Source: Clostridiales bacterium
Lineage (GTDB): Bacteria > Bacillota > Clostridia > Lachnospirales > Lachnospiraceae
Reading direction: 5' to 3'
DNA: 53,384 bases
NCBI GenBank assembly: GCA_012520815.1
Contig: JAAYNM010000060.1
Span: 1-53,384 of the forward strand
Part shown: positions 1,578-15,407 of the stretch, piece after piece
Numbering within the stretch: position 1 is the stretch's first letter
How the letters are laid out: each line of letters opens with the position of its first letter
Notes under the pieces: model-generated
Databases searched by the model: none
What the model was told of the DNA's origin: nothing
What the model saw: the letters and a program-made list of their open reading frames with translations, nothing else
Made by a program: the position numbers and the translations under genes

Positions 1578-3995
1578 ATGAATACTCCAATGTCTTGGAT
1601 TAAAGCATATGTACCTGAACTTGAATGTACTGATCAGGAATATACAGATGCAATGACTCTTTCAGGTACAAAAGTAGAAGGATTTGAAAGATTAGATGAA
1701 AATTTAGATAAAATAGTAGTAGGACAGATAGTAAAAATAGAGAAACATCCAGATGCCGATAAGCTTATTGTTTGTCAGGTTAATATTGGCACTGAAACTA
1801 TACAAATTGTTACTGGTGCACAAAATGTTTTTGAGGGTGCTATAGTTCCAGTTGTATTAGATGGTGGTAGAGTAGCTACAGATCACGACAGTAATAAGGT
1901 TGCTGGTGGTACAAAAATCAAGAAGGGAAAACTTAGAGGCATAGAATCTAATGGAATGATGTGTTCAATAGAAGAACTCGGTTCAACTAGAGATTTTTAT
2001 CCAGAAGCTCCAGAGGACGGAATATATATCTTCCCAGAAGGAACTACTATTGGTGCTAATGCTGTAGAAGTATTAGGACTTAATGATGTTGTATTCGAAT
2101 ACGAAATCACATCAAATAGAGTAGATTGCTTCGGTGTTATTGGTATAGCAAGAGAGGCCGCAGCGACATTTAGAAAACCATTAGTATTACCGGAAGTTAA
2201 GGCTACGGGAAATAATGAAAATGCTAGTGATTACATTAGTATAGATGTTCAGGATGCAAAACTTTGTCCAAGATACTGCGCTAGAGTAGTAAAAAATGTT
2301 AAGATTGGACCATCACCTGAATGGATGCAAAGAAGACTTGCAGCATGTGGAATTAGACCAATTAACAACCTTGTAGATATTACAAATTATGTTATGGAAG
2401 AATACGGTCAGCCAATGCATGCTTATGATTTAAGCACTATAAAAGGTAATAAAATTGTAGTTAGACGTGCAAATGAAGGGGAAAAGTTCACAACTCTTGA
2501 TGGACAGGAGAGAACTTTAGATGAAAATATTCTTATGATTTGCAATGCCGAAGAACCTGTATGTATAGCAGGTATCATGGGCGGCGAAAATTCAAAGATT
2601 ACAGATGATGTTAAAGATGTATTATTGGAAGCTGCTTGTTTTGATGGAACAAATATTAGATTATCATCAAAGAGACTTGGACTTAGAACAGATTCATCTA
2701 GTAAGTTTGAAAAGGGTCTAGATCCAAACAATGCTTCTGCTGCAGTTGACAGAGCTTGTCAGTTGATTAGCGAATTGGGTGTAGGTGAAGTAGTCAGTGG
2801 ATTGGTTGATGACTATAAGACAGTAAAAGAACAAAGAAGAATTAAATTTGAGCCACAAAAGTACAATTCACTTTTAGGAACAGATATCTCAGTTGAAGAA
2901 ATGCTTTCTTATTTTAAAAGACTTGAGCTTGAATATGATGAGACTAACAATGAACTTGTTATTCCAACATTTAGACAAGACCTTGAGTGTAGTGCAGATA
3001 TTGCAGAAGAAGTTGCAAGATTTTTCGGCTATGATAAAATCCCCGTTTCACTTCCAAGTGGAGAGGCAACTACAGGTAAGTTGAGCTATAAGATGAGAAT
3101 TGAAGATGTTGCTAAAGATATCGCTGAATTCTGCGGATTTTCCCAGGCTATGACCTACTCATTTGAAAGTCCTAAGGTTTTTGATAAATTATTAATTCCT
3201 TCGGATTCAAAACTTAGAGAAACAGTAAACATTTTAAACCCACTAGGAGAAGATTTTAGTATAATGAGAACTACTTCTTTGAATGGTATGCTTACATCAC
3301 TCGCAACGAATTATAATAGAAGAAATAAAGAAGCTAGACTATATGAATTGGCAAATGTATATGTACCAAAACAGCTTCCACTTACAGAATTACCTGATGA
3401 AAGAATGACTTTCACATTGGGAATGTATGGAGATGGCGACTTCTTTACTATGAAGGGTGTTGTCGAGGAATTCTTTGAAAAAGTTGGAATGAAACGTAAA
3501 ACAGAATATGATAATAAATCAGGCAAACCATTCCTCCATCCTGGTAGACAGGCAAATATTGTTTACGATGGTAAAGTAGTTGGATATTTAGGTGAAATTC
3601 ATCCAACAGTTCTTGATAACTACGATATTGGAGATAGAGCATATGTTGCAGTTATTGATATGCCAGAGATTATTTCAGATACATCATTCGATAGAAGATA
3701 TGAAGGAATTGCAAAATACCCTGCAGTATCAAGAGATTTAAGTATGATTATGTCTAAAGAGATACTTGTTGGTGATGTAGAGAAGATTTTTGAGAAACGT
3801 GGCGGAAAGCTTCTTGAAAGTTATAAATTATTTGATGTCTACGAAGGTGCACAGATTAAATCAGGATATAAATCTGTAGCATATTCATTATCATTCAGAC
3901 ACAAAGAGAGAACTCTTGAAGATAAAGATATTACAGAAATTATGGAAAAGATACTTGCTGATCTTAAGGAAATGGATATTGAACTTAGAGCATAG
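1578..3995 (+). CDS. pheT: Phenylalanine--tRNA ligase beta subunit
   Basis: This is the large partner of PheS, providing tRNA binding and editing of mischarged Tyr-tRNA-Phe. At 805 residues it is full length for the family. The order is an EMAP/OB-type tRNA-binding domain (about 40-150), the B3/B4 editing domain, the B5 domain, a catalytic-like core, and a C-terminal ferredoxin-fold anticodon-binding domain (about 710-805, containing FDVYEG and SLSFRHKERTLED). RBS AAAGGTAGGA lies 7 nt before the ATG. It is co-transcribed with pheS and followed 20 nt later by ychF. Confidence 0.98.
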   Translation: MNTPMSWIKAYVPELECTDQEYTDAMTLSGTKVEGFERLDENLDKIVVGQIVKIEKHPDADKLIVCQVNIGTETIQIVTGAQNVFEGAIVPVVLDGGRVATDHDSNKVAGGTKIKKGKLRGIESNGMMCSIEELGSTRDFYPEAPEDGIYIFPEGTTIGANAVEVLGLNDVVFEYEITSNRVDCFGVIGIAREAAATFRKPLVLPEVKATGNNENASDYISIDVQDAKLCPRYCARVVKNVKIGPSPEWMQRRLAACGIRPINNLVDITNYVMEEYGQPMHAYDLSTIKGNKIVVRRANEGEKFTTLDGQERTLDENILMICNAEEPVCIAGIMGGENSKITDDVKDVLLEAACFDGTNIRLSSKRLGLRTDSSSKFEKGLDPNNASAAVDRACQLISELGVGEVVSGLVDDYKTVKEQRRIKFEPQKYNSLLGTDISVEEMLSYFKRLELEYDETNNELVIPTFRQDLECSADIAEEVARFFGYDKIPVSLPSGEATTGKLSYKMRIEDVAKDIAEFCGFSQAMTYSFESPKVFDKLLIPSDSKLRETVNILNPLGEDFSIMRTTSLNGMLTSLATNYNRRNKEARLYELANVYVPKQLPLTELPDERMTFTLGMYGDGDFFTMKGVVEEFFEKVGMKRKTEYDNKSGKPFLHPGRQANIVYDGKVVGYLGEIHPTVLDNYDIGDRAYVAVIDMPEIISDTSFDRRYEGIAKYPAVSRDLSMIMSKEILVGDVEKIFEKRGGKLLESYKLFDVYEGAQIKSGYKSVAYSLSFRHKERTLEDKDITEIMEKILADLKEMDIELRA

Positions 3996-12626: not shown

Positions 12627-12724
12627 ATAGGTTAGAATGTAAATCTAATGGGAAACAGCTTTCTTTTAGATTATGATATATAAAAATATACAAAAAACCA
12701 GGGACTTTGAAGGAGGATATAACC

Positions 12725-13909
12725 TTGCTTGAAATTAGAACAAACGAAGCAGAAGCAGCGGCAAAAATCATAGTAGTAGGTGTTGGCGGTGCTGGCAATA
12801 ATGCGGTTAATAGAATGATAGATGAAAATATAAGCGGTGTAGAATTTATTGGTATTAACACTGATAAGCAGGCTTTGAAGCTTTGTAAAGCACCTACATC
12901 CCTCCAGATTGGCGAAAAACTTACCAAAGGACTTGGAGCCGGAGCTCAACCAGAGGTTGGTGAAAAAGCAGCTGAAGAAAATATTGATGAACTCACAGAA
13001 GCAATTAAAGGCGCAGATATGGTATTTGTTACCTGCGGTATGGGTGGTGGTACTGGAACTGGTGCAGCACCTGTAGTGGCTAAGATTGCAAAAGATATGG
13101 GTGTTCTTACTGTAGGCGTAGTTACAAAACCTTTCAAGTTTGAATCGAAGACCCGTATGAACAATGCTACTAGTGGTATTGACAGATTACAAGAAAATGT
13201 AGATACTCTAATTGTCATTCCAAATGACAAGCTGTTAGAGATAGTTGATAGAAGAACAACGATGCCAGAAGCACTTAAGAAGGCTGATGAGGTATTACAA
13301 CAGGCAGTGCAAGGTATTACAGATTTGATTAATGTTCCAGCACTTATCAATTTGGATTTTGCAGATGTACAAACTGTTATGAAGAACAAAGGTATTGCAC
13401 ATATCGGTATTGGTACAGCAAAGGGTGATGATAAGGCAAATGAAGCAGTTAGATTGGCTGTTACTAGCCCATTGCTTGAGACAACCATCTCTGGTGCGAC
13501 ACATGTTATTATTAATATTTCTGGTGATATTAGCTTGATGGAGGCAAATGAAGCAGCAAGTTTTGTTCAGGAACTTGCAGGTGATGAAGCCAATGTTATC
13601 TTTGGTTCTAGATATGATGATACATCCCCTGAAGAATGTACGATAACCGTTATTGCTACAGGACTTGATGGATCGGCATCGCCAGTGGCACAGACTGTTG
13701 CAGGGATTACAGCTGGAGCGCTTAATGGATATAGACCAAATACAGTGAAGCCTGTTGGTGGTTACGCAAAGCCAGAATTAAAATATTCTCAAGTACAACC
13801 TGCTTCACCTGTTCGTCCAGTTGGTGGTATTCAGACACAGGCGGTAGAGAGAAGTGTACAAGAAAAATCCCTTAATATCCCAACTTTCTTACAAAAAAAG
13901 AGGGATTAA
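12725..13909 (+). CDS. ftsZ: Cell division GTPase FtsZ
   Basis: This tubulin homologue forms the Z-ring. The start is the TTG at 12725, placed 8 nt after AAGGAGG (12710-12716). It yields the family-typical beginning [19 protein letters not shown], while an in-frame TTG at 12707 would lie upstream of that RBS. The tubulin signature [11 protein letters not shown], the nucleotide-binding [11 protein letters not shown] and the T7 loop NLDFADV are intact. The C terminus carries the conserved peptide [12 protein letters not shown] used to bind SepF/FtsA-type anchors after a variable linker. It comprises 394 residues. A terminator follows, then a decayed spoIIGA. Confidence 0.98.
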
Positions 13910-13935
13910 TTTAGAACTTTTGCTTTTGATATTTA

Positions 13936-13968
13936 GGATTACCTTATATATAGGGTAATCCTTTTTTT
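13936..13968 (+). terminator. Terminator after ftsZ
   Basis: GGATTACC (13936-13943) pairs perfectly with GGTAATCC (13954-13961), followed by seven T. Confidence 0.92.
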
Positions 13969-13985
13969 ATTTTCAAGATGAGTGT

Positions 13986-13992
13986 TGTCGAA
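13986..13992 (+). promoter_or_regulatory. Possible Spo0A box upstream of the spoIIGA remnant
   Basis: The heptamer TGTCGAA matches the core 0A box. It lies about 46-52 bp upstream of a start predicted from the TAATAT at 14026-14031, similar to the placement of Spo0A sites at the Bacillus spoIIG promoter. A single heptamer may be chance, and the association with the remnant is the only support. Confidence 0.3.
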
Positions 13993-14067
13993 AAATTCTT
14001 TTTCTAGGATTTTACTTGAGCTTGATAATATAAACACCTATTTTAGGTAAAATGCTAACAAATATAA

Positions 14068-14362
14068 GCGAGGTATGTGGTTATTAAAGGTGGAATTACG
14101 CTAATTGAGGAAAGAAAAAGACCAGTTCTTTTACAACCCTTGAGAGCAAAAATATATTGCAATGATAGTATGTTTTGTGTAAAGGCCATTTATGACACTG
14201 GAAATGACCTTAAAGAGCCATTAGGGGGGTGAAGCCGTTCATTTATTAGATGGGAAGTATAAGGAGCTAATAGGGGGTGTTTATGACATAAAAAGAACAC
14301 CAAGAATAATTAAACTATCATGTTGCACATCTTTTAGCAATATCTCAATCATATATTTCTAG
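14068..14362 (+). pseudogene. spoIIGA: Decayed spoIIGA (sigma-E processing protease) remnant
   Basis: No intact gene occupies the 586 bases between ftsZ and nadA. One frame from 14068 reads through KAIYDTGNDLKEPLGG to a TGA at 14230. Skipping one base after a run of six G, the next frame continues EAVHLLDGKYKELIGG and on to a TAG at 14360. The DTGN motif with downstream DP/EP-L-G is the active-site region of SpoIIGA, the membrane aspartic protease that activates pro-sigma-E. The spoIIGA gene normally follows ftsZ in spore-forming Firmicutes. The N-terminal membrane half, a start codon and the sigE-sigG genes are all missing. Assignment is by motif plus synteny, and the remnant is clearly non-functional. 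Confidence 0.72.
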
Positions 14363-14420
14363 ACTTGAGAAGAAAATCATAAAATATTGAAGAGAGAAAT
14401 TAATTATTTTTGTTAATTTA

Positions 14421-14449
14421 TTGACAATCCATATAAAAAGTGGCATATT
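14421..14449 (+). promoter_or_regulatory. Promoter of the nadABC operon
   Basis: TTGACA at 14421-14426, 17-bp spacer and CATATT at 14444-14449. No clear NiaR-type operator was recognised nearby. Confidence 0.6.
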
Positions 14450-14495
14450 TATAACAATTAAATTTAGATAACTAGTTTACTTGGAGGATTGAAAA

Positions 14496-15407
14496 ATGTC
14501 ACACGATGAACTGATAACCCGAATAGAGGAACTTAAGAAAGAAAAGGACGCAGTTATTTGCGCTCATTACTATGTTGATGAAGAGGTTCAAAAGATCTCT
14601 GATTATGTAGGCGATTCCTTTTATCTGGCGAAAGTCGCTGCAAACCTAAAAGAACAAACTATAGTATTTTGTGGGGTTTCATTTATGGGAGAGAGTGCAA
14701 AGGTTTTAAGTCCTGAAAAGACTATCCTTATGCCAGATCCAACAGCAGATTGTCCTATGGCACATATGGCTATGGTTTCAGCTATTGAAAAGTATAGGAA
14801 ACACTATGATGACCTTGCGGTTGTATGTTATGTTAATTCAACAGCTGAGTTAAAAATGCATTCAGATGTATGCGTTACATCATCTAATGCTCTTAAAATA
14901 GTTAGAAAGCTTCCAAATAAGAACATATTTTTCATACCAGATATTAATCTTGGAAGTTATGTTAAAAAGATGGTTCCAGAGAAGAATATTATATTAAACG
15001 AGGGATTTTGTCCGGTGCACAAGGAAATAGAGGCGACGGATGTTGAGACTGCAAGAGTAGCACATCCAAATGCCAAGCTTCTAGTTCATCCAGAATGCAG
15101 TCCAGATGTTATTGAACTTGCAGATTATGCTGGAAGCACATCGGAGATAATAGAGTATGCTAATCAGTCAGAATGTGATGAGTTCATTATTGGTACAGAG
15201 ATTGGTGTATTTTATGAATTAAAAAAGAGATGTCCTAACAAGGAGTTTTTCCCTATAAAGAATAATCAGATATGCAAAGATATGAAGAAAATATCATTGG
15301 AGAAAGTGTATAATGCATTAAATACAATGTCACCAACAGTAGAGTTGTCTGATGAAGAGATAAGTAGGGCTAAAAGCCCATTGATGAAGATGCTTGAACT
15401 GGCATAA
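14496..15407 (+). CDS. nadA: Quinolinate synthase
   Basis: NadA condenses iminoaspartate with dihydroxyacetone phosphate to quinolinate using an oxygen-sensitive [4Fe-4S] cluster. Three Cys fit the known ligand spacing: residue 86 in DCPMAHM, 172 in GFCPVHKE and 260 in CKDMKKISLEK. At 303 residues it is the compact form found in anaerobes. RBS TTGGAGG precedes the ATG. It is the first gene of nadA-nadB-nadC, whose products act consecutively. Confidence 0.97.
   Translation: MSHDELITRIEELKKEKDAVICAHYYVDEEVQKISDYVGDSFYLAKVAANLKEQTIVFCGVSFMGESAKVLSPEKTILMPDPTADCPMAHMAMVSAIEKYRKHYDDLAVVCYVNSTAELKMHSDVCVTSSNALKIVRKLPNKNIFFIPDINLGSYVKKMVPEKNIILNEGFCPVHKEIEATDVETARVAHPNAKLLVHPECSPDVIELADYAGSTSEIIEYANQSECDEFIIGTEIGVFYELKKRCPNKEFFPIKNNQICKDMKKISLEKVYNALNTMSPTVELSDEEISRAKSPLMKMLELA

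Follow-up and report, generated by a model that had tools for sequence, protein, structure and literature searches.

Loss of sporulation is established in Lachnospiraceae and other gut Firmicutes (PMC3971600, PMC8340488), and surveys connect it with adaptation to the host and with changes in transmission (PMC8340488). In the available portions of these surveys of Former-Spore-Formers (Browne et al. 2021, PMC8340488; Meehan and Beiko 2014, PMC3971600), presence and absence were scored and relics are not described; the word 'pseudogene' is absent from PMC8340488. A search of the full-text literature in a partial library for spoIIGA together with pseudogene returned nothing on such a relic, as judged by titles and the beginnings of abstracts. 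Sporulation losses are usually recorded as absences, and a legible relic gives sequence from which the loss might be dated. The locus described here, found in the window (the whole stretch of 53,384 nucleotides analysed), is a new and unusually legible instance of this known loss. What remains of a spoIIGA-sigE operon lies between ftsZ and nadA (13910-14495), and we consider it close to certain that this is a double pseudogene, left in a lineage in which the ability to form endospores was lost. Like the Former-Spore-Former Lachnospiraceae in the available parts of those surveys (PMC8340488, PMC3971600), the genome, designated G000, is without Spo0A and sporulation genes and is smaller. It was compared with seven congeners, of which the sister genome G004 is the nearest relative. 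The features of the region are as follows:

12707-13909, plus strand: ftsZ, intact (TIGR00065, E=1.2e-121)
13935-13968, plus strand: intrinsic terminator of ftsZ, a 12-pair stem and a T run
13985-13993, plus strand: TTGTCGAAA, a Spo0A-box-like sequence containing the only TGTCGAA of the window, both strands counted
14074-14229, plus strand: spoIIGA relic, first frame, with the DTGN motif, equivalent to G004 residues 143-194 (PF03419, congeneric profile and G004 alignment)
14224-14232, plus strand: lesion, a GGGGGG run with a frameshift, then an in-frame TGA (sequence and alignment to intact G004)
14231-14315, plus strand: spoIIGA relic, second frame, equivalent to G004 residues 195-222 (raises the PF03419 match; DNA match to G004)
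14312-14322, plus strand: deletion junction between spoIIGA and sigE (matches jump in G004 from L036:4738 to L036:5618)
14322-14413, plus strand: sigE relic, the last 32 of 247 codons, forming the end of the region 4.2 helix-turn-helix (sigE profile and G004 DNA match)
14421-14449, plus strand: putative nad operon promoter, TTGACA-17-CATATT, conserved in the sister G004 before nadB
14496-15407, plus strand: nadA, intact, downstream of the relic (NF006878, E=3e-118)

The frame at 14068-14232 translates as ARYVV...AIYDTGNDLKEPLGG* and carries both DTGN and KEPLGG. After the six-G run (14224-14229) and the TGA (14230-14232) it reopens one base off as EAVHLLDGKYKELIGGVYDIKRTPRII. The original prediction had read this arrangement as a fossil of spoIIGA between ftsZ and nadA, and profile searches bear this out. 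With the Pfam profile for SpoIIGA, the sigma-E processing protease (Peptidase_U4, PF03419), the first open piece alone gives E=2.4e-6 and 27.5 bits, slightly below the cut-off, while both pieces read together give E=1.7e-7 and 31.3 bits, above the cut-off of 28.4. When the same profile is run against the whole genome, its best match falls exactly here, with internal stops. A profile of the seven congeneric SpoIIGA sequences has a single significant match in the six-frame translation of the window (14068-14229, E=6.8e-6), and at the DNA level 14182-14311 matches G004 spoIIGA (E=5e-7). The NCBIfam SpoIIGA model TIGR02854 matches weakly (0.035), far below its whole-protein cut-off. The piece is about 30-38% identical to G004 SpoIIGA; over the same stretch intact congeners are only 37-42% identical to each other, though their FtsZ proteins are 94-96% identical. 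We therefore rejected SpoIIGA divergence as a clock, as the intact protein evolves too fast.

In its profile, its DTGN motif and its place after ftsZ and before sigE, the relic resembles spoIIGA, whereas it differs in what is left of the gene. About 79 of 282 codons survive (14074 to about 14315); they are disrupted by the frameshift and stop, and the start, the membrane half and the C-terminal end are gone. The loss of the start and the membrane half had been predicted and is borne out. A functional SpoIIGA would need a membrane domain and, in the same frame, a complete aspartic protease domain; no such protein is encoded here. The SpoIIGA-like tail that was proposed to follow the shift holds to about 14315; past about 14320 it is the 3' end of sigE read in another frame, and we rejected the whole 14225-14362 frame as SpoIIGA for this reason. 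We likewise rejected the idea that a gene start survives at about 14067: 14063-14096 resembles the sigE start of G003 (E=0.06), a match both weak and out of order.

At 14310-14390 a different frame encodes the end of SigE. In the original prediction sigE was deleted up to nadA, which is not supported. A profile of SigE from eight relatives has its only significant match in the window at the surviving 3' end (E=1.7e-8); the DNA agrees with the end of G004 sigE at 77% over 92 bp (E=5e-16), a match that extends nearly to the stop, and the protein is 90% identical to G004 SigE over 21 aa. The relic thus shares its C-terminal sequence with this sporulation sigma factor (sigma factor E). It differs in that all preceding codons are missing, in a frameshift near 14380, followed by KILKREINYFC and the stop TAA (14414-14416), and in the replacement of a glycine that is invariant in the eight relatives. 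With homology to SigE and these lesions, it is a pseudogene like its neighbour. Because the matches jump in G004, about 880 bp relative to that genome are missing near the junction, where spoIIGA codon ~222 is fused to sigE codon ~216 (G004 numbering).

Intact spoIIGA is found in all seven congeners and follows ftsZ directly in most of them (G003-G007 and G010). In G004, where spoIIGA and sigE both stand intact after ftsZ, the order is ftsZ, spoIIGA, sigE, nadB, nadC and a yfbR-like gene. The spoIIGA relic keeps the position seen in relatives, 3' of ftsZ and with the end of sigE next at 14322. Given a legible relic and an intact sister genome, the comparison of sequences shows deletion and frameshift, and not ancestral absence, as the route of loss, and it fixes the ancestral gene order.

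The terminator of ftsZ is the only terminator-like site between ftsZ and nadA. On the other side, the putative nad promoter lies outside the relic, and the DNA conserved with G004 directly 5' of nadA is this promoter. Since it is conserved in G004 and the window, the relic appears to lie between the terminator of ftsZ and a nad promoter that is still in use. Once sporulation was no longer selected, deletions (through deletion bias) and slippage would have removed the operon; the terminator and the nad promoter would have been retained because they still serve the living genes ftsZ and nadA, and the remaining spoIIGA-sigE sequence would be without function. Against the last point, one might argue that a short product is still made from the fragment or that the region is reused, for example as a nadA leader, since the first frame runs for 54 codons without a stop and retains DTGN and the DNA 5' of nadA is conserved with G004. 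However, sequence inspection revealed no convincing ribosome site with a start codon at a suitable distance, the C-terminal end of the protease and its substrate sigE are gone, and the conserved DNA, being the nad promoter, also occurs in G004, where the sigE upstream of it is intact. We therefore regard expression or reuse as very improbable.

It is possible, if only faintly so, that TTGTCGAAA at 13985 is a Spo0A box surviving from the promoter of the operon. Upstream of spoIIGA the TGTCGAA core is present in G001 and G010 and absent from G004 and the others, and we set the box aside as proof of a promoter relic because only two of the eight relatives checked have the core motif. As a separate observation, nadA of the window is flanked by the conserved nad promoter and nadB; in G004 the gene does not occur at this site, and the promoter is directly 5' of nadB. 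The gene was either gained in the lineage of the window or lost in G004. Elsewhere, the closest relatives of NadA found reach no more than 66% identity, and most are labelled as Lachnospiraceae genera.

The double pseudogene agrees with the rest of the genome, a 96-contig draft of 1.82 Mb that is 99% complete (congeners, 1.9-2.9 Mb). Profile searches of G000 gave no match for Spo0A (Spo0A_C), SpoIVA, SpoIIR or the SpoIVB peptidase, each of which is present in seven of seven congeners. Sigma-70 region 2 occurs in four of its proteins versus 10-20 in congeners. Two are RpoD, one is FliA/WhiG and the fourth, which lacks region 4, is RpoD-like; none is a sporulation sigma factor. This is the content of a former spore former, with spo0A and other sporulation genes absent here and present in relatives, and the predicted loss of sporulation by the lineage is upheld. 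No relic of spoIVB-spo0A was found beside recN (L163), and none of spoIVA was seen beside yicC (L176), where the stretch reaches only about 190 bp past yicC. The RpoD-like sigma factor (L173, G000:C96:2800-5200, minus strand, 951-1751) has 256-267 aa and ends before region 4, being either truncated or divergent.

It might be objected that errors of assembly or sequencing produced the lesions and that the real genome sporulates, as in a draft of so many contigs a missing gene could sit in a gap and one lesion lies in a homopolymer. Yet the locus is well inside a 53 kb contig and carries several lesions of differing kinds; a homopolymer error could explain one frameshift, but not the deletions or the second frameshift. 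Moreover, in a genome 99% complete, each of five sporulation markers and every sporulation sigma factor is either absent or damaged, whereas the five markers are found in all congeners, even in one at 74% completeness, which makes an artefact highly improbable. The chance that a DTGN-bearing intergenic frame without spoIIGA ancestry merely resembles the gene is practically negligible: although the open piece has only 54 codons and by itself falls slightly under the Pfam cut-off, adjacent pieces match both genes that should follow ftsZ, with order and strand as expected, each outscores all 1000 dinucleotide shuffles of the region (spoIIGA profile, 20.1 bits against a best of 12.7; sigE profile, 30.3 against 4.5), and the idea is refuted by the sigE match, which is independent evidence, and by synteny with G004, which has spoIIGA and sigE at the same place.

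Read as a double pseudogene, the locus also bears on the age of the loss, which the original prediction had called recent. Over 21 comparable sigE codons, the relic shows about 9 synonymous and 3 non-synonymous differences from G004, close to what is seen in functional pairs. Since replacements are few against many synonymous differences, most of the branch was probably spent under selection, with decay as a minor late part; with 21 codons and nearly saturated synonymous sites this is only an indication, and it lends recency slight support. Within the family, a survey of 396 genomes at least 90% complete found spoIIGA above the cut-off in 266 and no match in 126, so that sporulation loss is common there.

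The fate of sigG appears to be a different matter. The gene lies 3' of sigE in G001, G003 and G010, but not in G002, G005, G006 or G004, and its supposed deletion together with sigE up to nadA finds no support. In G004 it is located between recJ and nrdR and is followed by a sporulation gene of the YlmC/YmxH family (TIGR02888, E=6e-15). The recJ-nrdR interval of G000 has no sigG, and it contains a second relic:

L177 (G000:C51), 2121-2002, minus strand: 3' end of a YlmC/YmxH-family spore gene (compare recJ-sigG-ylmC/ymxH-nrdR in G004)

In this relic about 41 codons remain from the end of the gene (57.5% over 40 aa, E=1.5e-11; DNA, 72% over 123 bp), after which comes a conserved stretch before nrdR. 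Judging from these gene orders, sigG was most likely lost separately, at recJ-nrdR, by a deletion of its own. Both relic loci are alike in shape, with only the 3' tail of the last spore gene left directly before what would be the intact promoter of a housekeeping gene, and the two (ftsZ-nadA and recJ-nrdR) could help to date the loss of sporulation. One may wonder whether this reflects a general rule, namely that deletions consume sporulation operons from inside until halted by a downstream promoter, in which case the shape of relics could date losses family-wide; we put this forward tentatively and consider it somewhat doubtful.

In a tree of FtsW, DivIB and FtsZ that included G000, G004, four other congeners and an outgroup, G000 and G004 split from the four other congeners with a support of 97.8/98; for the two as a pair, placed next to the outgroup, support is only 71.8/65. 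The gap between ftsZ and spoIIGA in G004 (L036 3633-4075, about 440 bp) contains a long near-perfect inverted repeat around TATAGCATAGAAACCGTATAGAAAAGT, a structure without counterpart in the window. PheT (1578-3995 of the window) is 81% identical to that of G004 and 39-41% identical to those of four other congeners in which it was found, a gap between lineages far larger than the gaps for FtsZ or DivIB. These congeners may carry a different PheT lineage, and it is possible that in one of the lineages a foreign or divergent copy took the place of pheT.
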